A DNA stretch of 64,000 bases from an uncultured Cocleimonas sp. (lineage in GTDB: Bacteria; Pseudomonadota; Gammaproteobacteria; Thiotrichales; Thiotrichaceae), in the NCBI RefSeq assembly GCF_947495625.1, contig NZ_CANLZW010000016.1, positions 1-64,000 of the forward strand, given 5' to 3'. The notes under the pieces are model-generated. The model searched no databases, was not told the origin of the DNA, and saw only the letters and a list, made by a program, of their open reading frames with translations. This document shows, in pieces, positions 1,394 through 60,710 of the stretch (position 1 is its first letter; every line of letters begins with the position of its first letter). The translations under genes were made by a program, and so were the position numbers.

Positions 1394-2923
1394 ATGTCCA
1401 GAATCTATATTTCAGCAGCTCATAAGTCATCGGGTAAAACCACGATATCGATTGGTTTGTGCGCTGCACTTTCAAAAAAAGGGTTAAAAATTCAACCGTT
1501 TAAGAAAGGCCCAGACTATATTGATCCGCTTTGGTTGGCGCGTGCGAGTGGCCTATCTGGAAGTATTGCTGAAAATTTAGATGCTCAAGGTGATATAGAG
1601 GGTTGTTATAATTTAGATTTCAATACTCAGTCTAAACAAGAGATATTACAAACGCTCTTTAAGCATAGCCATAACGCTGATATTAGCCTTATCGAAGGCA
1701 ATAAAGGTTTATACGATGGTGTTGCTTTAGATGGCAGTGACAGCAATGCAGCGGTAGCAAAACTTACGCAAAGTCCTGTAATTTTAGTTATAGATAGCCG
1801 TGGAATTACCCGTGGTGTTGCACCACTTTTATCTGGTTATAGACACTTTGATCCTGATGTAAATATTGCAGGCGTCATATTCAATCTCACGGGCGGTCCT
1901 CGTCACGAACAAAAATTGAGAGCCATAACTGAAGAATATACTGATATTCCTGTTTTAGGCATGGTTCGAAAGAATAGTGGAATGGAGCTTGATGAAAGGC
2001 ATTTAGGATTAATGCCTAGCAATGAAGATCAACATGCTAGTCAGAAAATTGCTGATATTGCACAAATGGTGGGTGATTCGGTTGATCTTGATAAATTGAT
2101 CGAAATTGCAAATTCTGCTCCTGAGCTAACACCGGTCTTATCTATTAACAAAAAAGAAGCTTCTAGTATCGCTAACGTGTCTCAAAGTAAAACAAGAGTG
2201 CGAATAGGTATTTGCGAAGATGCCGCGTTTGGCTTTTATTATACTGATGACAAACAAGCGTTAATTGATGCGGGTGCGGAATTGGTCAGTATTGATACGC
2301 TACATGATCATGGTTTGCCTGATGATCTTGATGGTTTATTTATTGGTGGTGGTTTTCCTGAAACACATATGCAGCAGCTATCAGATAATGAATCCATGCG
2401 AATCAGTATTCGTGATGCCATTGAAGCGGATCTGCCGACCTACGCGGAATGCGGCGGCTTGATGTATCTGACTCGCAGTTTGGAGTGGAATGATCAAAAA
2501 GCAGACATGGTCGGGGTAATTCCAGCTGATACCCTAATGCATAAAAAACCTCAGGGAAGAGGGTATGTGGAATTAGAAGCAACGTCAGAAATGCCGTGGG
2601 GTAAGTCTAGTAATGAATCTAGTGAAGTTAGTGCAGCTAAAATAAATGATAGTAAATATACGCCCATAATCAATGCGCATGAATTTCACTATTCGCGGTT
2701 GGTAAATATCTCTGGTGAAGGAAAATTTGCCTATAATGTACATAGAGGGGTGGGTATAACCGGTGACAAAGATGGCTGGATATACAAGAATTTACTCGCT
2801 AACTATTCTCATTTAAGAAATACAGAGAAATTCGAATGGGCAAAACAATTTGTTGGTTTTGTGCGGGAGAAAGCTAGATTCAAAGAACATAGTTTGAAAG
2901 ATAACGTAAATAGAAGTTTATAA
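1394..2923 (+). CDS. dsrN: DsrN: siroheme amidase / cobyrinate a,c-diamide synthase-like
   Basis: ATP-dependent amidase of the CobB/CbiA family. The family transfers glutamine nitrogen to corrinoid or siroheme side-chain carboxylates. In sulfur oxidisers DsrN is thought to make siro(heme)amide for the reverse-acting sulfite reductase DsrAB. The N-terminal half is a P-loop domain (AHKSSGKTT, residues 9-17, then FKKGPDYIDP). The C-terminal half is a class III glutamine amidotransferase with nucleophile C353 in AECGGLMYL and histidines H429/H432 in NAHEFHYS. The length of 509 residues is normal. The ATG has a strong GAGGG site. The call DsrN rather than cobalamin CobB rests on the next gene being a DsrR homologue, as in Allochromatium vinosum (dsrN-dsrR); no other cobalamin gene is present. 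The IS just upstream may separate it from the rest of dsr. Confidence 0.8.
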   Translation: MSRIYISAAHKSSGKTTISIGLCAALSKKGLKIQPFKKGPDYIDPLWLARASGLSGSIAENLDAQGDIEGCYNLDFNTQSKQEILQTLFKHSHNADISLIEGNKGLYDGVALDGSDSNAAVAKLTQSPVILVIDSRGITRGVAPLLSGYRHFDPDVNIAGVIFNLTGGPRHEQKLRAITEEYTDIPVLGMVRKNSGMELDERHLGLMPSNEDQHASQKIADIAQMVGDSVDLDKLIEIANSAPELTPVLSINKKEASSIANVSQSKTRVRIGICEDAAFGFYYTDDKQALIDAGAELVSIDTLHDHGLPDDLDGLFIGGGFPETHMQQLSDNESMRISIRDAIEADLPTYAECGGLMYLTRSLEWNDQKADMVGVIPADTLMHKKPQGRGYVELEATSEMPWGKSSNESSEVSAAKINDSKYTPIINAHEFHYSRLVNISGEGKFAYNVHRGVGITGDKDGWIYKNLLANYSHLRNTEKFEWAKQFVGFVREKARFKEHSLKDNVNRSL

Positions 2924-2982
2924 GAAATTTAAAAAAGTTAAGAAGATCGTATTAAAAAGTAAAGATAAAGTAGGGAGATAAA

Positions 2983-3294
2983 ATGATCAAAGTTTCAGAT
3001 AATGCAGCAAAGCAAGTGATGATTTCATTGGAGCAAATGGGTGCGGATGTTTTGCCACTCAGAATCGCCATTAAAGTACAGGAAGACGGTTCTTTTCATT
3101 ACAATATGGGATTTGACGACAATAAGCACGAGGGTGATAAGAGTTTTGTCGAGAAAGATATCGGGTTTGTTGTTGATGCTGCCACCATGCCACTTATAGG
3201 TGGTATGACGATGGATTATGTTGAAATAGATGGAAAGCATGAGATTGTTTTTCTTAATCCAAATGATCCTCATTTCAAGCCTCCTACCGAGTAA
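2983..3294 (+). CDS. dsrR: DsrR: cysteine-free IscA/HesB-like protein
   Basis: Small (103 residues) A-type-carrier-fold protein with the family landmarks LRIAIKVQEDGSFHYNMGFDD and IVFLNPNDPHF. It contains no cysteine at all, so it cannot hold an Fe-S cluster in the normal IscA way. Cysteine-free IscA homologues are known as DsrR in A. vinosum, where the protein affects expression of the stored-sulfur oxidation genes. It lies 59 bases after dsrN with an AGGGAGA site before the ATG and 10 bases before the kinase gene, so the three genes are probably co-transcribed. The alternative is an unrelated HesB-like protein, but the dsrN neighbour argues for DsrR. Confidence 0.8.
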   Translation: MIKVSDNAAKQVMISLEQMGADVLPLRIAIKVQEDGSFHYNMGFDDNKHEGDKSFVEKDIGFVVDAATMPLIGGMTMDYVEIDGKHEIVFLNPNDPHFKPPTE

Positions 3295-7070: not shown

Positions 7071-7531
7071 GGTTTAGTCTGCTATTGATATGATTTTTGT
7101 TGAGGGCATTATAATCCAGATAGCAATTTCTGGTGAAACATATTGTGTAACTTGGAAAAACTTATCGTATAAATAGAACAGAAAAATAAGCTCAATTAAT
7201 AGCAGTGTTGATTCACTCAATAATTAGTAAAAATATCCCATTGGGTTTTTAATAGTGTGTACTAATATACCTAAAGGGGTAGAATCAATGTTAATTATTA
7301 TGTTATCTTCGTGTGAATGCTACAGCAGCTTAGAAACTTAAGTTGATGAAAATAGCGATAAAAAAATAGAGCTAAATTATCAGCCCCTGTAAAAGACTAT
7401 TGTCTTTTTTGATAATTTGGATTTTATGGTAGCAATACTATTACCCCAAGAAAATAAATAATGTTCCCTACTATTTGTACTCATAATTTTGTACTCATTA
7501 TTATTTTCACCAAAGGATTGGAGTGTGATCT
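7071..7531. other. Divergent M23 / rpoS regulatory gap with a GC-poor hairpin
   Basis: A 461-base AT-rich gap that must hold the promoters of both flanking genes. The only structure I can point to is AAAAGAC-TATT-GTCTTTT at 7391-7410, a 7-bp stem followed by more T, about 120 bases before rpoS. It may be a leader hairpin or weak terminator affecting rpoS expression. No promoter could be assigned with confidence. Confidence 0.4.
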
Positions 7532-8584
7532 ATGCAAACTGGACATTCGGCCCCTGATGTTCTTTTCGAGAGTGTTTCTACAAAAAAAACTAAAACAATT
7601 AATACTAAGTCACCCAAGAAAAGTGATGATATAACTAGTCTTATTGAAGCGAAGAAACAAAAAATATCCAAACAAGCAGATCTTGATAAGTTATCGGATA
7701 ATCTGACTGCGGAAAAACCAAAGGCTGCTGTTAAAATTCCGCGTAAGGAGCTTGATGCGATTCAGCTTTATCTAAAAGAAATTGAGTTCTCTCCCTTATT
7801 AACTCCAGATGAAGAAATAAAGTATGGGCGTTTAGCGAGAGAGGGTGATGCCCTTGGTCGTAAAAAAATGATCGTATGCAATTTACGATTGGTGGTTAAA
7901 ATATCTCGGCGTTATATGAACCGTGGTTTACCACTACCTGATCTAATAGAAGAAGGTAACCTTGGTTTAATTCACGCGGTTGAAAAATTTGATCCTGAAC
8001 GTGGTTTCCGTTTTTCTACTTATGCAACCTGGTGGATACGACAGAACATAGAACGTGCACTGATGAATCAATCTCGCACTATTCGACTTCCTATTCATAT
8101 CAATAAAGAAATCAATCAATATTATCGTAAGTTCCAACAGTTGACGCAAAAGAGTGGTGAAGAGCCTACTATTGCTGAAGTCGCAGAAGCGTTGGGTAAA
8201 CCTGTCGAAAAACTTCAAAAGCTTTTACATTACGGTGAGCGAGTCAGTTCACTGGATATCAATATCGGTAAAGAAGGCAATAATCCATTAGTAGATTTTG
8301 TTTCTGAAGAATCGCAACAGGAACCTTCTGAATCTATCAATGATGAAGCTGTATGTAACTCGGTTGAAAGCTGGTTAACACAACTTGAGCCTAAGCAGCA
8401 GGAAGTGATTGTTAGACGTTTTGGATTGCACGGTCATGATAATTCAACGTTGGCGCAAGTCGGTGAAGAACTTGGGTTAACCAGAGAACGCGTTCGCCAG
8501 ATCCAAATGGAAGCGCTTAGACGTTTACGTCGTATTCTTGAGAATCAGGGATATTCTGGTGATGTGCTACTTGGAAGCGTTTAA
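7532..8584 (+). CDS. rpoS: RNA polymerase sigma factor RpoS
   Basis: Stationary-phase / general stress sigma factor. After a lysine-rich variable N-terminus (1-70) come region 1.2 (DAIQLYLKEIEFSPLL, 75-90), region 2 (NLRLVVKISRRYMNRGLPLPDLIEEGNLGLIHAVEKFDPERGFRFSTYATWWIRQNIERA, about 117-176), region 3, and region 4.2 (TLAQVGEELGLTRERVRQIQMEALRRLR). At 350 residues it is slightly longer than E. coli RpoS. AAGGATTGGAG precedes the ATG. The usual nlpD is missing directly upstream; a divergent M23 gene takes its place. RpoS rather than RpoD is chosen from size and the lack of region 1.1 and the non-conserved insert. Confidence 0.92.
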   Translation: MQTGHSAPDVLFESVSTKKTKTINTKSPKKSDDITSLIEAKKQKISKQADLDKLSDNLTAEKPKAAVKIPRKELDAIQLYLKEIEFSPLLTPDEEIKYGRLAREGDALGRKKMIVCNLRLVVKISRRYMNRGLPLPDLIEEGNLGLIHAVEKFDPERGFRFSTYATWWIRQNIERALMNQSRTIRLPIHINKEINQYYRKFQQLTQKSGEEPTIAEVAEALGKPVEKLQKLLHYGERVSSLDINIGKEGNNPLVDFVSEESQQEPSESINDEAVCNSVESWLTQLEPKQQEVIVRRFGLHGHDNSTLAQVGEELGLTRERVRQIQMEALRRLRRILENQGYSGDVLLGSV

Positions 8585-8607
8585 TACATATTTAAATCAA
8601 ATTATAT

Positions 8608-8636
8608 AAAAACCCCCTTAAAGTAGGGGGGTGACT
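8608..8636 (+). repeat. G-run repeat copy 1 (rpoS / nadB gap)
   Basis: A-tract, ACCCCCTTA, then AAGTAGGGGGGTGACT. The left arm is C-rich here, so CCCCCT / AGGGGG can pair with a 6-base loop. It lies between convergent rpoS and nadB and runs straight into a perfect 20-bp AT palindrome at 8634-8653. Confidence 0.85.
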
Positions 8637-8660
8637 ATTTTTTAAAAAATAGTATAAACA

Positions 8661-8684
8661 AGCCGATTTTCATCGGCTCGTTTT
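8661..8684. terminator. Bidirectional terminator between rpoS and nadB
   Basis: AGCCGAT-TTTC-ATCGGCT (8661-8678) followed by CGTTTT on the plus strand, which serves rpoS. On the minus strand the hairpin overlaps the nadB stop codon and is followed by TTGTTTATAC. The convergent arrangement fits a shared terminator. Confidence 0.75.
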
Positions 8685-10553: not shown

Positions 10554-11135
10554 ATGGGCGCGAATCAAACAGATTTAGAATTGGTGAGAAGGGTACAGTC
10601 AGGGGATAAGTCGGCTTTCGATGTTTTGGTATTAAAATACCAGCAGAAAGTTATTAATCTTGTCACGCGATATGTGCACGACCCCCATATCGCTATGGAT
10701 GTTTCCCAGGAATCCTTCATTAAAGCTTATAAAGGTTTAAAGAACTTTCGAGGAGATAGTGCTTTTTATACCTGGCTTTACAGGATCGCCATCAATACCG
10801 CTAAAAACCACTTAGTATCTAAAAGCCGTCGTATGCCAGACGATGATATAGATGCGCAAGAAGCAGAACAGTACGATGGCGGTGGAAAACTAAGAGATAT
10901 CAGTACACCTGAAAATCAAATGATGACTGATGAAATTAAGAATACCTTAAATAAGGCAATTGAAGCGCTACCCGATGATTTACGCATAGCTATAACGTTA
11001 AGAGAACTTGAAGGTTTGAGCTATGAGGAAATATCTGATGCCATGGATTGCCCCATAGGTACGGTGCGATCACGAATATTTAGAGCACGTGAATCTATAG
11101 AAAGTGAATTAGAACCATTAATAGGAAGTTTTTAA
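10554..11135 (+). CDS. rpoE: ECF sigma factor RpoE (AlgU)
   Basis: Envelope-stress sigma factor of 193 residues, the standard size. Region 2 shows SAFDVLVLKYQQKVINLVTRYVHDPHIAMDVSQESFIKAYKGLKNFRGDSAFYTWLYRIAINTAKN. Region 4 shows LRELEGLSYEEISDAMDCPIGTVRSRIFRARE. AGGAGAG precedes the ATG. It heads rpoE-rseA-rseB-rseC-degP, the order of the Pseudomonas algU-mucABCD locus. RseA should hold the protein at the inner membrane until misfolded outer-membrane proteins trigger its release. Confidence 0.95.
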   Translation: MGANQTDLELVRRVQSGDKSAFDVLVLKYQQKVINLVTRYVHDPHIAMDVSQESFIKAYKGLKNFRGDSAFYTWLYRIAINTAKNHLVSKSRRMPDDDIDAQEAEQYDGGGKLRDISTPENQMMTDEIKNTLNKAIEALPDDLRIAITLRELEGLSYEEISDAMDCPIGTVRSRIFRARESIESELEPLIGSF

Positions 11136-11262
11136 TACGTCTGTCTTTAGTAATTTAACCTTACTTGTAATTCAGCAGAGTTTAAGTCGTAATATTTTAT
11201 AATGACTGCGAACTAAGTGATTAAAGTCTTGTCTATGAACATGAATATTATGGAAGTGACAA

Positions 11263-11967
11263 ATGGAAAATAGCAATAACCCAACTTCAATGCCCGAACA
11301 TCTATCTGCTTTGCTTGATGATGAGGCTGGCTCATTTGAACAAAAACGTGTTCTAGATGAATTAAAATCAAACGATTCGTTGCGCGATAAATTATCCACT
11401 TATGCTTTGATCGGTGAAACCATGCGATCTAGTGATATGGATAAACCCGTGTTGAATTTAGATTCAAACTTCCTCGCCGGTATTCATGCCCAAATTGAGG
11501 AAGAAGAGCAGTATAACGATGTTCAAATCAATCAAGCAGTAAACAGTCAATCAGCTCCTTCTCAATCATGGTTAAAGCCTGTCGGTGGTTTTGCGTTAGC
11601 GGCATCAGTTGCAGCCGTCGCTGTGTTGGGTTTTCAGAATTTTCAACAATCAGGATTGTTAGACCAGTCTACGATCGCTGCCAATAGTTTAAATAGCCAA
11701 ACGATGGTTGCGCAAAAAGCTCAGCTTAGTGAAAGTGAGATGGCTTCTGCGATACCAGTATCAGCTGCTACTTTGGCATCTAACGATTCGGTAGCGAGCA
11801 ATTCCTCAGGTGGCAATGATTCAATGGCTGCCACACAAGAATATGCACAAGCGGATACACAAACTCGTTCTTTATTGAAACGTTATGTAGATTCTCACAT
11901 GCAATATGCCACTACCGCAGCATTCGTTCCTTCAGTTAGAGTCATTGCATACACAGATAATCAATAA
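11263..11967 (+). CDS. rseA: Anti-sigma-E factor RseA (MucA)
   Basis: Inner-membrane anti-sigma factor. The N-terminal sigma-binding domain (MPEHLSALLDDEAGSFEQKRVLDELKSNDSLRDKLSTYALIGETMR, about 10-55) is typical of RseA. One membrane helix at about 107-125 (VGGFALAASVAAVAVLGF) is followed by a periplasmic, Ser/Asn/Gln-rich domain that would bind RseB. At 234 residues it is a little longer than E. coli RseA. It lies 127 bases after rpoE, and its stop codon overlaps the rseB start (TAATG), so the two are translationally coupled. Confidence 0.9.
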   Translation: MENSNNPTSMPEHLSALLDDEAGSFEQKRVLDELKSNDSLRDKLSTYALIGETMRSSDMDKPVLNLDSNFLAGIHAQIEEEEQYNDVQINQAVNSQSAPSQSWLKPVGGFALAASVAAVAVLGFQNFQQSGLLDQSTIAANSLNSQTMVAQKAQLSESEMASAIPVSAATLASNDSVASNSSGGNDSMAATQEYAQADTQTRSLLKRYVDSHMQYATTAAFVPSVRVIAYTDNQ

Positions 11968-13040
11968 TGATAAAACGTTATTTAAAAAATAGTATAAAAG
12001 ATAAAAAAAATACAGCCATGAAGCCTTTTGCCTACTTAATGCTAATTCCTATGCTTTTACCGGTTTCGGCATTTGCCGATAAAGCTGCTGTTGATTTGTT
12101 GAATAGAATGAATCAGGCGCTTCATGAATTAAACTACAAGGGCACCTTAGCTTATCTTCAAGGGAATTCTCTTTCTACGCTTCATATTGATCACTCTGTG
12201 GTTAATGGAGTCGAAGGGGAGCGCGTTGTAAGATTAAACGAAGCAGGTAGTGAAGTTTCAAGAGAGTTGAAGGGTTTTTCATTATCATCAATTCCAAAAA
12301 TTCGCCCTGAAATGGAAAAGGTCTATTCCTTTGATATGGGAAGAGAAAATCGCGTAGCTAACATTCCCTGTAGAATCATTACTGCGAGACCCAAAGATCG
12401 ACAACGCTATTTACAAAAATACTGTATTGATACAGTGTCGGGTATGTTGCTTGATTATATGTTAGTGGGTAAATCACATAAGCCTGTTGAGCAGTTTATG
12501 TTTACGACTATAGAAATCAGGGTGCCAGAAAACGTTTCATCATCTAATAATTCGATATGTGCTGCGGGCGATTGTGCTTTACAGCCCCTGAATTCTGGTG
12601 CGGGTACGACTACAGCAATACTCGATCAATCAGTCACTACCGTAGATCCTATTCAAACGACTGTTGCAAAAAACAATCCTAATGTTATTTCCAAACAGGT
12701 ATTGAGACAGGTTAGCCATACTTCTCTTGAAGATGGCTGGGTGATAGAAACAATCCCTTTGGGGTATGAATTAAAACAGGCTCCTCACTTAAAAGAAAAA
12801 AATAATAACAATGGTGATACAAAGCATTATGTATTATCAGATGGCCTCAGCACAGTGTCTGTATTTGTTACTCCCTATATAAAGAGTACACCAATGGATG
12901 CGGTTGAGATTAATTCTGGCGCATTGAATGTTGTTACTCAGCAAAAGGGCAAGCACAGAATAACTGCTGTTGGAGAAGTGCCAGAAATTACCCTTAAAAA
13001 CCTTGTGAAAAATTTACGTAAGAAAAACCTTAACCAATAA
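11967..13040 (+). CDS. rseB: Periplasmic sigma-E regulator RseB (MucB)
   Basis: Secreted MucB/RseB-family protein that binds the periplasmic part of RseA and protects it from proteolysis while sensing lipoproteins and LPS. The N-terminal lipid-binding-like domain starts at AVDLLNRMNQALHELNYKGTLAYLQG. A C-terminal MucB/RseB domain follows a low-complexity linker (about 190-245). The signal peptide is clear: PFAYLMLIPMLLPVSAFA. I give the start that overlaps the rseA stop; an inner ATG at 12018 (MKPFAYLM) would give a more usual signal peptide, and neither has a good ribosome site. Confidence 0.9.
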   Translation: MIKRYLKNSIKDKKNTAMKPFAYLMLIPMLLPVSAFADKAAVDLLNRMNQALHELNYKGTLAYLQGNSLSTLHIDHSVVNGVEGERVVRLNEAGSEVSRELKGFSLSSIPKIRPEMEKVYSFDMGRENRVANIPCRIITARPKDRQRYLQKYCIDTVSGMLLDYMLVGKSHKPVEQFMFTTIEIRVPENVSSSNNSICAAGDCALQPLNSGAGTTTAILDQSVTTVDPIQTTVAKNNPNVISKQVLRQVSHTSLEDGWVIETIPLGYELKQAPHLKEKNNNNGDTKHYVLSDGLSTVSVFVTPYIKSTPMDAVEINSGALNVVTQQKGKHRITAVGEVPEITLKNLVKNLRKKNLNQ

Positions 13041-13044
13041 GCAA

Positions 13045-13491
13045 ATGCAATTTACACAAGAAGAAGCAGTTGTAGATGACGTTGGCAATGGTTATGTGTA
13101 TCTAAGCACCAACAACGCATCTTGTAAAAGTTGTTCTTCACAGTCCGGTTGTTCTAGCTTTTCTTTCTTCTCAAATACGCCAAGTCGGTCACTCAAAGTA
13201 CTTAATACTTTAAGTCTTGAAAAAGGAGATCGGGTAATGGTGGAACTAAAAACCGAGAAGCTGGTGCTGGGGACTTTACTGGTTTATATACTGCCTTTAG
13301 TGAGCCTTCTAGTTTTTTCTATAATTGGGAAGTTATTGTTGGGGGAGGGCTTTAGTATATTATTCGGGATTGCAGGTTTTGTTCTAAGTTTATTTATTAC
13401 TAAACGTATCATGTCTAATAAGGGTCTTTCTGACCAATTTGAGCCTAAATTACTTAAAAAAATAATATTGATAAATCCTTCTAGTTCATAA
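13045..13491 (+). CDS. rseC: RseC/MucC-family inner-membrane protein
   Basis: SoxR-reducing / RseC family protein of 148 residues with the family pattern: an N-terminal cysteine cluster CKSCSSQSGCSSF (C28, C31, C37), then two adjacent membrane helices (about 73-92 and 98-117) and a short basic tail. E. coli RseC modulates RseA and participates in reduction of SoxR with the Rsx complex. It lies 4 bases after rseB in the sigma-E operon. No ribosome site is obvious, so translation is probably coupled to rseB. Confidence 0.85.
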   Translation: MQFTQEEAVVDDVGNGYVYLSTNNASCKSCSSQSGCSSFSFFSNTPSRSLKVLNTLSLEKGDRVMVELKTEKLVLGTLLVYILPLVSLLVFSIIGKLLLGEGFSILFGIAGFVLSLFITKRIMSNKGLSDQFEPKLLKKIILINPSSS

Positions 13492-13587
13492 TGATTTTGG
13501 ATATATAATCAGATAACCTTAATATGTCTTATATTTAGGTGCAATTGAATTAATAGAAAGTTTAAAGACAATATATTAGATATTAGA

Positions 13588-13620
13588 GACACCCCCCTAC
13601 TTATAGCGGTATTTTTTAGT
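13588..13620 (-). repeat. G-run repeat copy 2 (rseC-degP gap)
   Basis: Read on the minus strand: ACTAAAAAATACCGC, then TATAAGTAGGGGGGTGTC. It lies 34 bases before the degP start with its C-rich strand in the mRNA sense. Ends GTGTC rather than GTGAC. Confidence 0.85.
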
Positions 13621-13654
13621 CAAGTGTGATTAAGGAAATCAAAGAGGCTTACAA

Positions 13655-15076
13655 ATGATAAAATCAATAAAAACAATAATTCCTTTATTCACTATCATTT
13701 TTTTAATGATCACCAAGCCTGTGTTTGCAGAACTTCCTGATTTTACTAAATTAGTTGAAGAGCATAGCGCAGCAGTCGTAAATATAAGTACAAAAAAGAA
13801 TCAGAAGGCTAGTAAGAAATTTTCTCAAGATCTCTTTGGTGAAGGCGAAAGAAATGAAATGCTAGACGAACTCATGAAGCGCTTTCTGGATAAAGATGGA
13901 GGCGGTGGATTCCCTAATGATAACGACACTAGTTCTTTAGGCTCTGGTTTCATCGTCTCTAAAGATGGTTATGTCGTTACTAACTATCATGTTATCGCAG
14001 AAGCCGATGAGATAATTGTCAAGCTCAGTGATCGCAGAGAACTTTCTGCAAAAATAGTCGGCAGTGATAAACGCAGCGATGTAGCTTTACTTAAAATTGA
14101 GGCAGATAATTTGCCTGTACTTGAAACAGGTAGTTCTGAAAATCTAAAAGTAGGAGAATGGGTAATTGCGATTGGTTCTCCATTTGGTTTTGATCATAGT
14201 GTTACCGCTGGAATCGTTAGTGCCAAAGGCAGAAGTCTTCCATCTGAAAACTATGTGCCATTTATTCAAACGGATGTTGCAATTAATCCAGGAAACTCTG
14301 GCGGACCGCTGTTTAATTTAAAAGGTCAGGTTGTAGGCATCAACTCACAAATATTTAGCCGTACTGGTGGTTTTATGGGGGTGTCCTTTGCCATTCCTGT
14401 AGATGTTGCAAAGCGAGTAATAGAGCAGTTAAAGGATAATGGTAAAGTATCTCGAGGGTGGTTAGGGGTATATATTCAGGAAGTAACTCGTGAATTAGCC
14501 TTGTCCTTTGGTTTAAGCAGTCCAAGAGGTGCTTTAATTGTTGAGGTGATAAAAGATGGCCCAGCAATGGGTGTGCTCAAACAAGGCGATATCGTATTGG
14601 AATTTAATGGCAAGAAAATAAAGAATGCATCTGCTTTGCCAGTAATTGTTGGGTCAACAGAACTCAATAAAGACGTAAAAATATCTGTAAGAAGAGGCGG
14701 TAAAACCGAAGTTTTGACGCTTCAGTTGTCTGAATTGCCTTCCGATGATGTCGCTAAAGCGCCCGTTGAAAAAAAGGTTGCTCCTAAAAAAATAGATAAT
14801 TTCATGGGGATGGAGTTGGCAGATATAGATGAAACTGCAAAAGAATCTCTGGATGTTGATAATGGTGTAATGGTTAAGCGCGTGCTTAAAGATCCAGCCA
14901 GAAATGCAGGGGTGGAGCGTGGCGATATCTTACTGATGTTCAATGGTGAAGATATCGATGATCTTGAGCACTTTCATGAATTAACAGAAGATATAGAAGA
15001 AGGTAAAATATATGCTCTGTTAGTTTTAAGATCTGGATCAGCAAGGTTCTTGGCGATTAAAACGGAAAAGAAATAA
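13655..15076 (+). CDS. degP: Periplasmic serine protease DegP/MucD
   Basis: HtrA-family protease-chaperone that degrades misfolded envelope proteins. A signal peptide ends near VFA-ELP (residue 25). The trypsin-like domain has catalytic H112 (TNYHVIAEADE), D142 (KRSDVALLKI) and S215 (NPGNSGGPLF). Two PDZ domains follow (about 265-350 and 380-465). The length of 473 residues is typical of MucD. It is the last gene of the rpoE locus but has a 163-base upstream gap containing a repeat copy, so it may have its own promoter. Confidence 0.93.
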   Translation: MIKSIKTIIPLFTIIFLMITKPVFAELPDFTKLVEEHSAAVVNISTKKNQKASKKFSQDLFGEGERNEMLDELMKRFLDKDGGGGFPNDNDTSSLGSGFIVSKDGYVVTNYHVIAEADEIIVKLSDRRELSAKIVGSDKRSDVALLKIEADNLPVLETGSSENLKVGEWVIAIGSPFGFDHSVTAGIVSAKGRSLPSENYVPFIQTDVAINPGNSGGPLFNLKGQVVGINSQIFSRTGGFMGVSFAIPVDVAKRVIEQLKDNGKVSRGWLGVYIQEVTRELALSFGLSSPRGALIVEVIKDGPAMGVLKQGDIVLEFNGKKIKNASALPVIVGSTELNKDVKISVRRGGKTEVLTLQLSELPSDDVAKAPVEKKVAPKKIDNFMGMELADIDETAKESLDVDNGVMVKRVLKDPARNAGVERGDILLMFNGEDIDDLEHFHELTEDIEEGKIYALLVLRSGSARFLAIKTEKK

Positions 15077-28806: not shown

Positions 28807-28971
28807 ATTTTAAAGGCATATTTTTTAAAGACAGGTTTAAAAAAAGATTTTAAGGAAAAAGATAAAAATGAAAATAATATATTAAAAAATGGAATAAAAA
28901 GCTAAGCGCTACGTCTATAGTATATGAACACGAAATAAAATTTAAAGACATGAGTAATTTATAGAAAATTA

Positions 28972-29553
28972 ATGATACAAATTTCCTTTAAAACCGCTTC
29001 TAAACGTACATTTAAAAAAGCTCTGGAAGCACATCGTCCAGCGCTATACAAGATTGCGTGGTCGTGGTGTCATGATGTCACCCTAGCTGAGGATCTTGTG
29101 CAGGATACTTATGCAAGAGCACTAAAGAATCGATCTCAACTCAAGGATTTAACCAAACTTAAACCGTGGCTCGCTAGAATCCTGGTGAATCTACATGCGG
29201 ACTATTTTCGGGCTAAAAAGGAATATGTCGAACTTGAGAACAAGCATCTGATGTCTGATCTCGATCCCATTACTCTGGCAAGTCGTGAAGAATCTATCCA
29301 GCTGGTTAGATATGCAATATCGCAACTAAATGATAAACAAAGAAAAATAATCAGTTTGATAGATATTGCAGAATTTAGTTATGCCGAAGTGGCTGAAATT
29401 TTAGACATTCCCATGGGAACTGTCATGAGTAGAATAAATCGCGCGAGACAAGCGCTTAAAGAACAACTAGAAAATATTGAACGTCAGCAACTTGAGAAGC
29501 AAATAGAAAAAAAGCTATCCCAAACAACACCTCGCCTAAGAAGGGTTAAATAA
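28972..29553 (+). CDS. ECF-type RNA polymerase sigma factor
   Basis: Second extracytoplasmic-function sigma factor in the window, 193 residues and distinct from RpoE. Region 2 shows RPALYKIAWSWCHDVTLAEDLVQDTYARALKNRSQLKDLTKLKPWLARILVNLHADYFR. Region 4 shows ISLIDIAEFSYAEVAEILDIPMGTVMSRINRARQAL. A lysine/glutamine-rich tail follows. The next gene, 2 bases on, is a membrane anti-sigma factor with a DsrE-like periplasmic domain. The signal and regulon are unknown. No good ribosome site is seen before the ATG. Confidence 0.9.
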   Translation: MIQISFKTASKRTFKKALEAHRPALYKIAWSWCHDVTLAEDLVQDTYARALKNRSQLKDLTKLKPWLARILVNLHADYFRAKKEYVELENKHLMSDLDPITLASREESIQLVRYAISQLNDKQRKIISLIDIAEFSYAEVAEILDIPMGTVMSRINRARQALKEQLENIERQQLEKQIEKKLSQTTPRLRRVK

Positions 29554-29555
29554 AC

Positions 29556-30341
29556 ATGACATTCAAAAAATATAAATCGCTATCAGATGAAACTTTGAAT
29601 GCGCTGGTGGATAACGAATTTCCTGCGGCAGAGCGTTCTGAGTTACTGGCGCATTTGCAGACTGATAAAGTCAGTAAAGAAAGAGCTTGTGAAATCAGTT
29701 ATCTAAAAGACCGAGTAAAAACAGCATACAGTGATATTCCACAACCCACCTCACAAGTAAAAGTCAAAATAGCAAAACGACATTTATATCGAATGGTTTC
29801 GAGTGTGTTTTTTGCACTTGTTGTGGTTGCTCTAGCGGTTGTAGGGTTGAATGGCACATATAATTCAGAAAACAATCGTTCAACAACGCAAACTGCATCA
29901 TCAAATGATTCTCAAAGATTGGTGGTACTTGATCCGGATGGCAGAGCTCAAAACCTGAGCCAGAATAATAGTGAAGAACTGCGTGTGGTTTTTCACGTAT
30001 CGAGCACAACGCGTTTGAGTGCTAACGAATTACTGGATGATATAGAAGGCTTACTCGAACAATCGATTAAAGATAATCAGAAGATCAGAGTTGAAGTGGT
30101 GGCGCATGCAGAAGGTCTTGATTTGTTACGCGAGCGTTTGTCGACCGAAAAACCACGTATTACTGCCTTGTCTAAACAGTATCCTGAACTCACATTTGTC
30201 GCTTGTTTGAATACCATAGATAGAATTAAAAGAGAAAATGGTATCGACGTAAAATTAATCTCAGAAGCAGAATCAACTCAATCTGGTGTTGCCTATGTCG
30301 TTATGAGACTGCAACAAGGTTGGTTATATATTCAGGTTTAA
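29556..30341 (+). CDS. Anti-sigma factor with periplasmic DsrE-like domain
   Basis: 261-residue single-pass membrane protein. The N-terminus (LSDETLNALVDNEFPAAERSELLAHLQTD) is the usual anti-sigma start, which would bind the ECF sigma factor encoded 2 bases upstream. Membrane helix at about 81-99. A Ser/Thr/Asn linker follows, and a C-terminal domain (about 143-261) resembles DsrE/DsrF proteins: VVFHVSS, HAEGLDLL, LTFVACLNT (C217), SGVAYVVMRLQQGWLYIQV. The same motifs in the same order occur in the secreted protein of the next gene. That the domain is a periplasmic sensor, perhaps reading sulfur or thiol state through C217, is inference. Confidence 0.8.
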   Translation: MTFKKYKSLSDETLNALVDNEFPAAERSELLAHLQTDKVSKERACEISYLKDRVKTAYSDIPQPTSQVKVKIAKRHLYRMVSSVFFALVVVALAVVGLNGTYNSENNRSTTQTASSNDSQRLVVLDPDGRAQNLSQNNSEELRVVFHVSSTTRLSANELLDDIEGLLEQSIKDNQKIRVEVVAHAEGLDLLRERLSTEKPRITALSKQYPELTFVACLNTIDRIKRENGIDVKLISEAESTQSGVAYVVMRLQQGWLYIQV

Positions 30342-30462
30342 CCGCGTTCAATATGCTTTTCTGCTCATCGGTAGAAGAGAAAAGCTAGCAATAATAAATA
30401 CCGAATACGTTTTATATTTATGAAATATTAAAAAAACTCATAAAAATGTAATTTAACCCGAT

Positions 30463-30467
30463 AGGAG
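30463..30467 (+). promoter_or_regulatory. Ribosome binding site deciding the DsrE gene start
   Basis: AGGAG lies 4 bases before the first and 7 before the second of two adjacent ATG codons (30472, 30475). Spacing favours the second. Confidence 0.6.
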
Positions 30468-30474
30468 ATCAATG

Positions 30475-30960
30475 ATGAAAAAAATTATTACCAGTATTTT
30501 AGCGTTAGTATTTTTAACGATAGCGAGTATCAGCACAGTCAATGCGGCTGATAATGGTTATGGAAAACAAAAGGTGGTTTACCACATTAACTATGATGAT
30601 CCGAAAAAGCAGAAAGGTGCTTTAGTGAATATTCAAAATCACATTAACGCTGTTGGTGCCGAAAATATGGAGATCAAAGTTGTATTGCACGGAAATGGAT
30701 TAGCATTACTCTTAGAGCCTGATTCATTGGCTAATGTACCAAAATTCAAACATGCAAATGCGACTGATAAAATGACTGTTAGGATTGATGGTCTAAAAGA
30801 TCAGGGTGTTGTGTTTAATGTTTGTAATAATACTGTTAAAGGTAGAAAGGTTAGCGTTGATAATGACTTATATAATGTTGAACAATCAGAGATTGTACCA
30901 AGTGGCGTTGCAGAATTAGCCAAGTTACAAATGCAGGGTTATACCTATATTAAGCCTTGA
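30475..30960 (+). CDS. Secreted DsrE-like protein
   Basis: 161-residue exported protein. A signal peptide MKKIITSILALVFLTIASISTVNA ends near residue 24. The mature part is one DsrE/DsrF-like domain: VVYHINYDDPKKQKGALVNIQNHINAVG, IKVVLHGNGLALLL, GVVFNVCNNTVKGR with its single cysteine C117, and SGVAELAKLQMQGYTYIKP. These segments line up with the periplasmic part of the anti-sigma factor just upstream. Such exported DsrE-like proteins are common in sulfur oxidisers but have no settled function. It could be the ligand or competitor of the anti-sigma sensor domain. A strong terminator follows; a 130-base gap before it may hold its own promoter. Confidence 0.85.
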   Translation: MKKIITSILALVFLTIASISTVNAADNGYGKQKVVYHINYDDPKKQKGALVNIQNHINAVGAENMEIKVVLHGNGLALLLEPDSLANVPKFKHANATDKMTVRIDGLKDQGVVFNVCNNTVKGRKVSVDNDLYNVEQSEIVPSGVAELAKLQMQGYTYIKP

Positions 30961-30992
30961 TAGTTAGACTATTGCGAATTGAGGCAAACTGG

Positions 30993-31025
30993 ACTGGGTA
31001 GCGAGAATTGCTACCCAGTTTTTTT
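30993..31025 (+). terminator. Rho-independent terminator after the DsrE-like gene
   Basis: Perfect 10-bp stem ACTGGGTAGC / GCTACCCAGT (30993-31019) with a 7-base loop and a T run to 31025. It closes the ECF sigma / anti-sigma / DsrE operon. Confidence 0.93.
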
Positions 31026-31041
31026 ATCGTTAAATTAGAAA

Positions 31042-35524: not shown

Positions 35525-36946
35525 CTAAAAAGGAAGGTGATGTTTGTAGTCTATAAGTTTAAATACCGCTTTAAATTGTTTTTTTATTTCTAGCAGACGT
35601 TCTTCAGTCGCTCCTTCAAAACGTAAACCAATACTAGAGCTGGTATTTGAGGCGTGAATAAATCCCCAGCCATCATCGTATTCGACTCTGAGTCCATCAA
35701 TTAGATTGAGATCAGCGCCGGGGAAAGACGCATTTTTAATAAACTGGGTTATTAGCTCAACGGATTCATTGTGGCTTGCGAATTTTAGTTTGTATTCTTC
35801 AGTAGCGAAACCATTAGGAATTTCTGAAAATACTTCGGCGGTAGATTGTGTTGTTTTTGATAAAATTTCTAATAATCGTGCAGCAACATAAGGGGCGTCA
35901 TCAAAATCATTCCATCGATCACGTAAAATAATATGGCCACTAAATTCACCCCCCATAATTGCATTTAAACGCTTCATCTCAAGTTTTATTTTTGAGTGGC
36001 CGTTGGCACAAATTGCAGCTTGTCCGCCAGCTTTACGTATTGCTTTGGGAAGTAAATAACTGCATTTGATTTCGTAGGCAATACGACTACCCGGAAAGGA
36101 TTGGAGGATACTTTGTGCCAGTAAAATCATGATTCTATCTGGCCATAAAATATTGCCTAGATTATCTACAGCAATCATACGATCACCATCGCCGTCAAAG
36201 GCGATACCGATATCGAGATTGTTTTCTTTAACGTGTTTAATTAAATAGGTGAGATTTTCAGGCGTCGTAGGATCAGGTGAATGATTGGGAAATGTTCCAT
36301 CTAGTTCACAAAATAGGGGGTAGACTTCACAACCCAGATTATTAAAAAGATCTTCAGAAAATAGTGAGGTAGCACCATTGCTTGAATCAATCCCGATACG
36401 CAGTTTTCTTTGGATTGCTATGTCTTTTATGACAGCTTCTTGATAATGCTGATTGGCAGAATCAAATGCTGTCAGCTTTCCACTTTTAACGATAGGATAA
36501 TCGTTTTTGCTTATATCAAAATATAGCGATTCAATGGCTGAAGTGGATAACGGTTGAGAATCGAAAACAATTTTGATGCCATTATGATCAGATGGACTAT
36601 GACTACCCGTAATCATGATTGCATTAGTCATATTGAGGTACTGTAAAGAAAAATAGACTACAGGTGTCGCTGTTAGGCCTATATCAGTGACGTTACAGCC
36701 GGAGCTTAAAAGTCCTTTAATTAACTGTTGGGAGATGTCCTGACTAGATAGTCTGCCATCGCGCCCAATGATTATATTCGGTGAATGTTGTTCGAGAAGT
36801 TGATTGCCAATCGCTTCTCCAATCAGAAAGGCATCATGAAAATTATTTTCAGAACACCATTCTTTGCCTATTTGACCACGTATGTCATAGGCTTTGAAAA
36901 TGTCTTTATTGATATGTTTATTTTTGACCAGAGTGTCCAAAGCCAC
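35525..36946 (-). CDS. algC: Phosphomannomutase/phosphoglucomutase AlgC
   Basis: Makes mannose and glucose 1-phosphates for LPS and exopolysaccharide. The N-terminal signature is [12 protein letters not shown]. The active-serine loop is [15 protein letters not shown] (usual form GSHNP; here Asn is replaced by Ser). The metal loop is FDGDGDRM, with GGEFSGHI and the C-terminal phosphate loop [12 protein letters not shown]. The start is uncertain: the frame opens at TTG 36979, but no ATG exists before the signature. I choose GTG 36946, preceded by GAGGA; TTG 36940 is also possible. Any of these overlaps the end of dut by tens of bases. Confidence 0.88.
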
Positions 36947-37385
36947 CAGTTCCTCGTTCGCTATCGTCAAAAGACTCAACCAGATTCAGTTTTGCCTGAA
37001 TCACGGGAATTATCACCAACTGTGCAATACGATCTCCGGATTCGATGGTGTATTCGGTATCACCACGATTCCAGCAGGATATAAATAGTTGGCCTTGGTA
37101 GTCAGAATCAATCAGTCCGACTAAATTTCCCAACACGATGCCATGTTTATGGCCCAAACCAGAGCGAGGTAAAATCGTTGCTGCGAGTGTTGGGTCTTCG
37201 ATATGAATGGCTATACCGGTTGGAATTAAATGCGTATCGCCAGGTTTAACCACAAGTGCTTCGTCTATACAGGCTCTTAAATCCATACCTGCAGAACCTA
37301 AAGTCGCGTATGAAGGAAGTGGAATGGTATCTCCGATACGATCATCAAGAATTTTATAATCTACGATATAATTTGGTTCGTGCAT
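36918..37385 (-). CDS. dut: Deoxyuridine triphosphatase
   Basis: Hydrolyses dUTP to dUMP. All five trimeric dUTPase motifs are visible: [48 protein letters not shown] and [10 protein letters not shown]. 155 residues. It lies between coaBC and algC as in Pseudomonas and overlaps algC. Confidence 0.95.
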
Positions 37386-37492
37386 TTTTGTGTTTAGCCC
37401 TTTTGTGCATGTATTTCGACATGTCTGTATTGCTTAGTGTCGAAAATTAAAATTTGGTTTAATAAAACTTTAACGATAGTTAAATAATAAGG

Positions 37493-38722
37493 TTAAGCAT
37501 TTTCAGAAATAATTTTCATGATTTTGAATGCTAATTCTGATTTGTCCATTTCAGGAATTGAGATTTGTTTGTCGTTTTCCCCATCTTTTATAATTATTTC
37601 TACTTGATTGGTGTCTTTGTCGAATGCTTTGTTTGAACCCACTTGATTCGCAACAATCATATCCAGTTTCTTACGCAGCATTTTTGCTTTTGCATGTTCA
37701 ACTAAATGCTCGGTTTCAGCGGCAAATCCTACACTAAATAGGTCTGGGTATTTATGAGATACATCAAATAAAATGTCAGGGTTGTAAGCCAGTTTTAACG
37801 ATAAATCATCTTCAGACTTTTTGATTTTCTGATCGGCTATATTGGCAGGTGAATAATCTGCCACAGCAGCAGTCGCGATAAAAATATCTGCCTTATCTGC
37901 CAGCGATAATGTTTTTGCATGCATTTCTTTGGCAGATTCTACCAAGTGTCTTTCGACACCAAGCGGTGCTTCTAAAGCAACAGGCCCAGACACCAGAATA
38001 ACGTTTGCTCCCATTTGTTTAGCGGCATTAGCAATGGCATATCCCATTTTCCCTGAGCTACGGTTGGTGATATATCGTACAGGGTCGATTGCTTCACGAG
38101 TTGGGCCCGCGGTTAGTAAAACGGTTTTACCAGCAAGGGGCTTTGTCGATGAATCTGTGTTTTGATCGAAAGAGTTTTGTTCTAAAGATAACAGCGCTTC
38201 CGTTAATTCTTGCGGCTCAAGCATTCTACCAGCACCTGTTTCACCACAGGCTTGCTCGCCTTCGGCCGGTCCGTGCAAAGTGATTCCCCGTGACTGCAAA
38301 ATCTGAGCGTTATGTTGAGTTGCTGCATTCGACCACATTAATCGATTCATCGCTGGTGCTAAATGAATCGGCGCATCAGTCGCCAAGCAAATCGTAGAAA
38401 GTAAGTCATTAGCATGACCGTGGGTAATTCGAGCCATGAAATCAGCGCTAGCAGGCGCGACCATAATGAGATCAGCCCAGCGTGCGAGTTCAATATGACC
38501 CATTCCCGCTTCAGCATCGACATCTAATAGATCTGTAGGTACTGGATTCCCGGTGAGTGCTTGCAGTGTGAGTGGCGTGATGAATTCGCAAGCTGCTTTT
38601 GTCATACACACTCTGACATCAGCCCCATTTTTGATTAACTGGCGCGTTAATTCAGCAGTTTTATAAGCAGCAATACCACCGCTTATCCCTATAAGTATTT
38701 GTTTATTCGTTATAAATGACAT
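37493..38722 (-). CDS. coaBC: Bifunctional CoaBC (phosphopantothenoylcysteine synthase/decarboxylase)
   Basis: Two consecutive steps of coenzyme A synthesis. The N-terminal flavoprotein decarboxylase domain has ILIGISGGIAAYK, PAMNRLMW and ACGETGAGRMLEP. The C-terminal CTP-dependent ligase domain has VLLTAGPTREAIDPVRYITNRSSGKMGYAIA and KIKKS. The frame is open 31 codons further upstream, but MSFITNKQILIGISGG is the natural start. A TATAAT lies just 10 bases before this ATG. Confidence 0.94.
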   Translation of the reverse strand: MSFITNKQILIGISGGIAAYKTAELTRQLIKNGADVRVCMTKAACEFITPLTLQALTGNPVPTDLLDVDAEAGMGHIELARWADLIMVAPASADFMARITHGHANDLLSTICLATDAPIHLAPAMNRLMWSNAATQHNAQILQSRGITLHGPAEGEQACGETGAGRMLEPQELTEALLSLEQNSFDQNTDSSTKPLAGKTVLLTAGPTREAIDPVRYITNRSSGKMGYAIANAAKQMGANVILVSGPVALEAPLGVERHLVESAKEMHAKTLSLADKADIFIATAAVADYSPANIADQKIKKSEDDLSLKLAYNPDILFDVSHKYPDLFSVGFAAETEHLVEHAKAKMLRKKLDMIVANQVGSNKAFDKDTNQVEIIIKDGENDKQISIPEMDKSELAFKIMKIISENA

Positions 38723-38732
38723 AATTGCGCTA

Positions 38733-38738
38733 ATTATA
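38733..38738 (-). promoter_or_regulatory. Possible coaBC -10 element
   Basis: A perfect TATAAT preceded by GG on the minus strand, ending 10 bases before the coaBC ATG. If it is used, the mRNA would have almost no leader. The -35 region is poor, so this is tentative. Confidence 0.3.
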
Positions 38739-38823
38739 CCAAATAACCTGAGAATATTGCATGTTACATGACGAGATGAATTGATTTGTTCGTCTTGATT
38801 CATTGTTAAACACAAAGCAATAG

Positions 38824-38845
38824 GACACCCCCGTACTTATGGCAA
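38824..38845 (-). repeat. G-run repeat copy 7, overlapping the radC start codon
   Basis: Minus strand reads TTGCCATAAGTACGGGGGTGTC. On the plus strand it is GACACCCCCGTACTTATGGCAA, so the ATG and second codon of radC are formed by the family segment that is CTTATAGGCA elsewhere. Confidence 0.8.
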
Positions 38846-39510
38846 TAACTGATTGGGCTGTAGAAGATAGACCTCGTGAGAAATTACTCGTTAAAGGAGC
38901 GCAAGCATTAACCGATGCAGAGTTGCTTGCGATTTTTTTACGCACTGGCATAAAAGGCAAAACAGCGGTCGATCTTGCACGAGACTTGCTCGCTGAAAGT
39001 GGTGGTTTAAGTCCATTATTGAGTGCTGATGAAAAAAGTTTTTGTCAGGGTAAAGGTTTAGGTCAGGCGAAGTATGTACAAATGCAGGCGGTGGTCGAGA
39101 TGAGTCGTCGTTACCTCGAAGAAAAGATTCATCGCGGCGATGCGATGAGCAATGTTAGCGATGTTAAAAAGTATTTACAATCTCGTCTTCAGCAATATCC
39201 GTTTGAAGTATTTGCCTGTTTGTTCCTGGACAATAAACATCGAGTCATCGAATACGAAGAGCTTTTTAGAGGCACTATTGATGCAGCTAGTGTTCACCCT
39301 AGAGAAGTGATTAGACGGGTATTGCATCATAATGCCGCTGCAATTGTGCTCGCCCATAATCATCCTTCGGGCGTGGCCGAGCCCAGTCAAAGTGATAATC
39401 TCATTACCCAAAAACTTAAAGATGCGCTCCAGTTGATTGATGTTCGTGTGCTTGACCATTTTATTATTGGCGATGACATTGTTTCATTTGCTGAGCGTGG
39501 ATTGCTTTGA
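38839..39510 (+). CDS. radC: RadC/DUF2466 JAB-domain protein
   Basis: Conserved protein once linked to DNA repair; that role is not supported in E. coli. The N-terminal helix-hairpin-helix part is [27 protein letters not shown]. The C-terminal JAMM metalloprotease-like motif is [16 protein letters not shown]. 223 residues, complete. It is divergent from coaBC as in many gammaproteobacteria. The repeat forms its start codon; the only AGGA is 13 bases upstream, so translation may be weak. Confidence 0.93.
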
Positions 39511-59441: not shown

Positions 59442-60710
59442 TTGCATACTCTTTCCCAATTACAATCTGGTGAACTTTCAGGCATTCAACGTCTATCATT
59501 GTCAGAAAATCTAACGTCATTTCCTATGGAGATTCTATCTCTGGCGGATAGTTTAGAAATCCTTGATTTAACTGACAATAACTTGTCTTCATTACCCGAA
59601 GAGTTGGTGCAGTTGCAGAAGCTTAAAATACTGTTTGTTTCAGATAATGACTTCGAAGAATTACCAGAGGTGCTTGGGCAATGCCTGAATTTGGAAATGA
59701 TTGGTTTTAAATCGAATAAAATAAAGCACGTTCCTGAGAACGCATTACCGCCTAAATTACGTTGGTTGATATTAACGGATAACCAGATTGCTAAAATGCC
59801 TGATTCTTTGGGTGAGCGACCTCGACTCCAAAAATTAGCATTGGCAGGTAATCGATTAACAGAGCTACCGCAAACTTTAGCTAAATCTACTAATTTAGAA
59901 TTAGTCCGAATCTCGGCGAATAAATTGACGGAATGTCCCGATCAATTACTGGGTTTGCCGAAACTTGCGTGGTTTGCATTTTCGGGTAATCCTTTTAGTT
60001 ATTCGGATATCGAGATCAAGTCAGCTCCTGAAATACCTTCAAAAAGTTATGAGTTGCTAGAAGAACTTGGGCGTGGCGCTTCTGGAGTGATTTCCAGAGC
60101 ACGCTGGAATCAGCAGCAATCTGAGTACCATATACAGTTTCAAAACGATATTGCGGTTAAAGTATTTAAAGGCGAAGTCACCAGCGATGGTTATCCAAAA
60201 GATGAATTGAATGCCTGTTTGAAAGTAGGCAATCATCCAAATCTGGTGAAGTCTTTGGCTCAGGTAAATGAAACAGGGTTGAATGGAAAAGGTAATCTCG
60301 CTTTAATCATGAGTTTGATTCCGCCGCATTTTGATAATCTAGGTCAACCACCGAATTTTGAAACGTGTACTCGCGATACCTTTCCTGATGATTTTTTCTT
60401 GTCGATAGCGCAAATTCAGAAAATGGTGGAACAAATGGAAGATGTCTTTAACCATTTGCATTCCAGTCAGGTCTGTCATGGGGACTTGTATGCGCACAAT
60501 GCTTTGTTCGATGAAGAAGCGAATATTATTGTTGGAGACTTTGGTGCTGCGACGATGTATCACATGGTTAATGAAAAACAACAGGCGCAAATTAAGCAGA
60601 TTGAACGTCGCGCCCTAAATTATTTTATTGAGGATTTGTTAAGTGTGTGTCGGGAAGAAGATAAAACCAGCGAAACTTACAAGAATCTTGAGCGAAAGAT
60701 TACTGGTTAA
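59442..60710 (+). CDS. Leucine-rich-repeat / protein-kinase fusion
   Basis: 422 residues. The N-terminal half (about 15-185) has about seven leucine-rich repeats of the SLSENLTSFP / LDLTDNNLSSLPEEL / LALAGNRLTELPQTL type. The C-terminal half (about 203-415) is a Ser/Thr-kinase-like domain: glycine loop LGRGASGVISRA, lysine K240 in IAVKVFK, catalytic loop HGDLYAHN (346-353, with HGD in place of HRD), and DFG at 366-368. The key D, K and N are present, so it may be active. The start is TTG 59442 without a clear ribosome site. Substrate unknown. Confidence 0.82.
   Translation: MHTLSQLQSGELSGIQRLSLSENLTSFPMEILSLADSLEILDLTDNNLSSLPEELVQLQKLKILFVSDNDFEELPEVLGQCLNLEMIGFKSNKIKHVPENALPPKLRWLILTDNQIAKMPDSLGERPRLQKLALAGNRLTELPQTLAKSTNLELVRISANKLTECPDQLLGLPKLAWFAFSGNPFSYSDIEIKSAPEIPSKSYELLEELGRGASGVISRARWNQQQSEYHIQFQNDIAVKVFKGEVTSDGYPKDELNACLKVGNHPNLVKSLAQVNETGLNGKGNLALIMSLIPPHFDNLGQPPNFETCTRDTFPDDFFLSIAQIQKMVEQMEDVFNHLHSSQVCHGDLYAHNALFDEEANIIVGDFGAATMYHMVNEKQQAQIKQIERRALNYFIEDLLSVCREEDKTSETYKNLERKITG

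Follow-up and report, generated by a model that had tools for sequence, protein, structure and literature searches.

The window (the whole stretch of 64,000 nucleotides analyzed here) carries three consecutive genes for an ECF sigma factor, an anti-sigma factor, and a secreted DsrE-like protein (Table 1). The initial annotation had placed three such open reading frames (ORFs) here, and all three were recovered with the same boundaries. Regions 2 and 4 of the sigma factor (PF04542 and PF08281) score above the Pfam cut-offs, and the protein is 24% identical to the sigma factor of a canonical sigma-E cluster that the window also contains (positions 10554 to 15076; rpoE, rseA, rseB, rseC, and a mucD-like gene, assigned by reading). 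The genes had been described as one operon closed by a strong terminator. The terminator was confirmed, and cotranscription of the third gene can be called likely: the 130-bp gap upstream of it contains no copy of the promoter motif described below, so that read-through into the secreted DsrE-like gene is the likely route of its expression. An attenuator between the second and third genes was also considered and rejected, as the hairpin there folds no better than shuffled sequences (z −0.84).

Table 1 Features of the sigma factor locus in the window
Feature	Position	Strand	Evidence or remark
Predicted ECF promoter, GGAATAA-N14-CGTC	28891..28915	+	~57 nt 5' of sigma start codon
ECF sigma factor gene, 193 aa	28972..29553	+	Pfam Sigma70_r2 and r4_2 above cut-off
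Anti-sigma factor gene with DsrE-fold sensor domain (predicted), 261 aa	29556..30341	+	ORF; AlphaFold model
Anti-sigma residues 1-72	29556..29771	+	Helical; putative cytoplasmic sigma-binding role; without zinc motif
Anti-sigma residues 73-98, predicted transmembrane helix	29772..29849	+	Hydrophobic helix in AlphaFold model
Anti-sigma residues 141-261, DsrE-like domain, putatively periplasmic	29976..30338	+	AlphaFold pLDDT ~95, Z scores, profile match
Codon of invariant anti-sigma C217	30204..30206	+	Cys in 45/45 aligned relatives
Secreted DsrE-like protein gene, 162 aa	30472..30960	+	PF02635 above cut-off
Intrinsic terminator	30991..31026	+	Hairpin 30991-31021, then T run; folding z −4.8

Several other features of the window were recorded. 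At positions 1394 to 3294, a cobyrinate-synthase-like gene is followed by an IscA-like gene, an arrangement reminiscent of how dsr operons end (dsrN-dsrR); a narX/narL-like pair comes next, and the dsrA gene of this genome lies on a separate contig. Positions 59442 to 60710 encode, as judged by reading, a protein with leucine-rich repeats and a kinase-like C-terminal part, which is uncommon in bacteria. A radC-like gene recurs no more than 10 kb from the sigma pair both in distant genera (loci L090, L061, L063, and L064) and in the window (positions 36918 to 39510), hinting at an old chromosomal position.

The DsrE-like domain of the anti-sigma factor and its secreted homologue

The full anti-sigma protein has no significant match in Pfam. 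The DsrE family PF02635 leaves the window's protein unmatched at an E value of 1 and matches 19 of 45 relatives weakly (best, 1e-4), and the RseA_N domain gives weak matches in 5 of the 45 (best, 0.033). The AlphaFold model comprises three predicted N-terminal helices, the transmembrane helix, a linker of low confidence, and a DsrE-like domain at about residues 141 to 261. This domain is closest to MTH1491 (1l1s; VIA Z score of 17.6, Foldseek E value of 5.6e-10), followed by YchN (VIA Z score of 12.6) and by TusD (2d1p) and DsrE (2hy5) (VIA Z score of 11.8), to which its sequence is only remotely related (12 to 14% identity). A profile built from the 45 relatives likewise retrieved MTH1491 (E value of 3.3e-19). 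On this model and these profiles, the C-terminal part of the anti-sigma factor is predicted to have a DsrE-family fold, a point that the initial annotation had set beforehand as one of two tests of its proposal and that the high-confidence model bears out. From the model we infer that the protein holds the sigma factor through its helical N-terminus, with putative binding and inhibition. The motif HX3CX2C of zinc-binding (ZAS) anti-sigma factors was found in none of the 95 anti-sigma relatives, and identity with that class was rejected.

The secreted protein matches PF02635 directly (42.5 bits against a cut-off of 22.7), has a Sec-type signal peptide at about residues 1 to 25 (judged by eye), and was modeled by AlphaFold with a pLDDT of 92.4 and a Z score of 18.1 to 1l1s; a profile of 34 free relatives retrieves MTH1491 with an E value of 2.2e-30. 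The relationship between the C-terminal part of the anti-sigma factor and the secreted protein, which had been proposed from shared motifs, was corroborated both by BLASTP (27% identity, E value of 1e-7 in a single comparison) and by a profile-profile comparison of the alignments of the 45 anti-sigma and 34 free relatives (99.8% probability, E value of 2.7e-29 over the DsrE domain).

Each mature domain contains one cysteine at the same place, as first noted; the number given for the secreted protein, C117, becomes C118 if translation starts at the first methionine. Anti-sigma C217 aligns with C118, which in turn aligns with the cysteine of the CSNT motif of MTH1491, and we take its position to correspond to that of C78 in TusD. 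C217, G255, and W256 are invariant in all 45 aligned relatives, and H147, R192, R201, and T220 are each conserved in 41 to 42 of them; a single cysteine within the DsrE-like domain is found at all 95 loci. The free proteins conserve their cysteine in 32 of 34 cases (the exceptions being L057 and L103) and mostly have Y or F in place of W256, which marks the sensor side. By alignment, C217 thus appears to occupy the sulfur-carrier position of the DsrE family, its loading with sulfur being putative.

In a phylogeny of 80 domains, built on 136 columns and poorly supported at many of its inner forks, one branch with support of 99/92 parts the tethered family from the free one. One dividing branch is consistent with a single origin of the fusion of a DsrE-like domain to an anti-sigma factor. 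It also led us to reject a recent local duplication: the shared fold seen in the initial annotation stands, and the tethered and free proteins, which it had called duplicated, instead represent an ancient split of two lineages that are now encoded side by side.

Distribution and gene neighborhood

At each of 95 loci, all from Gammaproteobacteria (in the GTDB sense), the DsrE-type anti-sigma gene is immediately preceded by the sigma gene; genes in the relatives were called by simple ORF selection, with 87 of the 95 adjacencies found by the first call and the remaining 8 after a check of overlapping frames. Within the order, 20 genomes, including that of the window, carry DsrE-type anti-sigma genes, and the exact three-gene order of the window is shared with genome G017 of the same order. 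Contig searches found relatives in Thioalkalivibrio, Thiobacillus, Sulfuritalea, Acidiferrobacter, Parasulfuritortus, Thiohalobacter, and many metagenome-assembled genomes (MAGs), and none on viral contigs. In a sample of 398 genomes of the phylum, full-length anti-sigma matches were confined to Gammaproteobacteria; the matches outside that class cover the DsrE part and the stretch preceding it.

A gene for a free DsrE-like protein lies within 10 kb at 75 of the 95 loci. The arrangement is thus widespread in sulfur oxidizers, and the second test set in the initial annotation, its presence in relatives, also came out in favor of the proposal. In 26 loci this gene directly follows the anti-sigma gene, and otherwise it is mostly divergent and upstream of the sigma gene. 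At the other 20 loci no free DsrE-like gene was found in the examined flanks, which at nine loci extended about 10 kb on both sides, indicating that a locus need not include the free protein. These patterns bear on the possibility that the free protein is the ligand and assembles with the tethered domain into mixed oligomers that hold or release the anti-sigma factor, in the manner of RseB and RseA. Homology of the two domains, their usual side-by-side encoding, and the hetero-oligomeric structures of the solved relatives DsrEFH and TusBCD all speak for such a ligand; we nevertheless consider it rather unlikely, given that the two families are well separated lineages and that some loci have no neighboring free gene.

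Neighboring genes differ between groups. In Acidiferrobacter-type loci (L062, L073, L078, L098, L099, L106, L109, and L133), a gene for a lactonase-like beta-propeller protein lies directly 3' of the anti-sigma gene; in Starkeya novella, a YVTN beta-propeller gene adjoins the SnRpoE1 target (excerpt of PMC6527743). At Thiobacillus-type loci (L101, positions 7352 to 8674, and similar ones), the divergent dsrE-like gene is followed by one that resembles phosphate-selective porin genes and may be a co-target. In several genomes of genus g8, which belongs to the window's family (L040 to L053), the dsrE-like gene lies next to sox-like genes and is flanked by genes for a DUF4395 membrane protein and a secreted protein of metallo-beta-lactamase fold. 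Sox-like genes near the sigma pair occur in this genus and at L072, L081, L084, L089, and L105. The 606-aa neighbor at L046 has a 5'-nucleotidase C-terminal domain and is a putative SoxB by motif reading; the SoxY and SoxZ labels come from similarity and reading.

The promoter motif and the link to sulfur oxidation

A two-block motif 5' of the sigma genes was first noticed by eye. In 1.6 Mb of sequence, the pattern GGAATA[AT]-N13-16-C[GA]TC has 161 matches, where mononucleotide shuffling predicts 5.25 and the pattern written in reverse yields 5; as the pattern was picked after viewing these same sequences, including some of the dsrE-like and soxB copies, the counts are descriptive and do not constitute an independent test. 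Spacing in the CGTC form is narrow, with 15 nucleotides in 102 matches, 14 in 21, and any other tested length in at most 2. The genes 3' of the matches are sigma genes (69), dsrE-like genes (32), soxB (9), SoxY-like genes (4), and others (2); a further 7 matches precede an anti-sigma ORF that was overcalled across the sigma gene, and to 38 the crude gene caller assigned no gene start. After the sigma operon itself, the dsrE-like gene is thus the commonest bearer of the motif, a candidate target that the initial annotation had missed. The window has a single copy of the strict form, upstream of the sigma gene (0.13 expected by chance), which is predicted to be an autoregulatory promoter of the sigma operon. 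No further convincing copy was found in the rest of the genome among the matches examined (about 20 CATC-type matches lie outside that set), the others being inside ORFs or unlike promoters, and the soxB region of this genome has no copy. With the sole convincing copy preceding the sigma operon, the regulon in this genome may consist of just that operon.

The motif matches the ECF26 consensus GGAAT/CGTC (excerpt of PMC6527743). This likeness raises the possibility that the signal is sulfite and that the system is a relative, in Gamma- and Betaproteobacteria, of the ECF26 pairs RpoE4 and SigE and uses another kind of anti-sigma sensor; in that case the free protein would handle sulfite or thiosulfate instead of acting as a regulator. 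The −35 GGAAT and −10 CGTC are identical to the consensus of sorT, sorA, and rpoE4 (excerpt of PMC6527743), and RpoE1 and RpoE4 respond to sulfite-generating compounds (excerpt of PMC3511301). Sulfite-oxidase genes, however, neither adjoin the window's operon nor are prominent among the conserved neighbors examined, and we regard sulfite as a possible, if somewhat doubtful, signal.

The full anti-sigma factor was found in 66 of 369 genomes sampled from the class (match table counted by hand), among which soxB is present in 152 and dsrA in 118. Of the 66, 65 have soxB (Fisher test, 1.7e-28) and 52 have dsrA (3.6e-18), both values ignoring shared ancestry. Broken down by genome type, it occurs in 51 of 105 genomes with soxB and dsrA, 14 of 47 with soxB only, 1 of 13 with dsrA only, and none of 204 with neither. 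This co-occurrence, together with the shared promoter 5' of sox genes in some lineages, strongly supports a predicted tie of the sigma/anti-sigma system to sulfur oxidation. Many ECF systems respond to oxidants, and a single exposed cysteine can react to them; a general envelope-stress or thiol-oxidation switch, its cysteine sensing oxidants rather than sulfur compounds, still seems highly improbable, given that every genome of the class sample with the anti-sigma factor also has soxB or dsrA, the promoter copies 5' of sox genes, and the absence of the zinc motif of redox-sensing anti-sigma factors from all 95 relatives.

Proposed mechanism and known systems

We propose that the locus probably encodes an ECF sigma/anti-sigma switch that controls sulfur oxidation and its own expression, the DsrE fold of the anti-sigma factor serving to sense a sulfur species in the periplasm. 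To the computed architecture, fold, invariant cysteine, gene order, promoter motif, and sox/dsr co-occurrence, the proposal adds a signal, a release step, and a role of the free protein that we infer. The helical N-terminus of the anti-sigma factor would tether the sigma factor to the inner membrane, and the periplasmic domain with its invariant cysteine would meet an oxidizable sulfur compound, either sulfane sulfur or persulfide, or else sulfite or thiosulfate. The anti-sigma factor would then free the sigma factor, directly or via proteolysis, to read promoters of the form GGAATA[A/T]-N14/15-C[G/A]TC at its own operon and the gene for the free DsrE-like protein and, in some lineages, at soxYZ/soxB and the porin operon. 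The free protein would most likely bind the same sulfur species as a carrier or buffer, giving a feedback loop. A more specific version, in which the persulfidated cysteine of the DsrE-fold domain reads periplasmic sulfane sulfur and the induced secreted homologue exchanges sulfur with it in a relay that sets sulfur-oxidation output, is put forward as speculative and, on balance, unlikely. The observation made in the initial annotation was thus confirmed, and its interpretation, in which the free protein carries a sulfur species or competes for a binding site to free the sigma factor, is partly supported.

A literature search, with subscription journals mostly outside its reach, did not turn up any account of an anti-sigma factor of the DsrE type, and the novelty of the arrangement is provisional. 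If the reading is right, a DsrE-family domain gains an apparent use in signaling, and a role is suggested for secreted DsrE-like proteins. The tethered domain and the free one both have their closest counterparts, by structure and by sequence, in MTH1491 (1l1s) and ST0148 (2pd2), archaeal proteins of unknown function that differ in standing alone, without a membrane anchor or a sigma factor. TusD and DsrE share the fold and have a cysteine at what we take to be the position matching C217, but they are cytoplasmic hetero-oligomers that pass sulfur on. The sigma-E/RseA/RseB system, apparently present in the window at positions 10554 to 13040, resembles the operon in its order of ECF sigma factor, membrane-bound anti-sigma factor, and a third, secreted gene product; the fold of RseB is not related to that of DsrE, and no DsrE domain is expected in that system.

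Among ECF sigma factors that act on sox genes, sigma-2 of Arcobacter butzleri (AB1044) activates the sox cluster but belongs to a different phylum and has a broad regulon that includes nap and other genes, and DsrE goes unmentioned in its description (PMC3445524). The closest characterized systems are the ECF26 pairs RpoE4 of Sinorhizobium meliloti and SigE of Starkeya novella, which are sulfite responsive and use a GGAAT/CGTC promoter (excerpts of PMC3511301 and PMC6527743). Like the window's system, they combine an ECF sigma factor and a cotranscribed anti-sigma factor with that promoter and a small regulon tied to inorganic sulfur oxidation; according to the same excerpts, their targets are sulfite dehydrogenases and no DsrE domain is described for them, whereas the window's system has an anti-sigma factor with a predicted DsrE fold and, as its partner, a gene for a secreted DsrE-like protein. 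The release mechanism of sulfite-responsive ECF systems is as yet unknown (excerpt of PMC6527743), and with a predicted sensor domain, its single cysteine, a promoter motif, and candidate targets in hand, the system described here makes the question of release directly testable.
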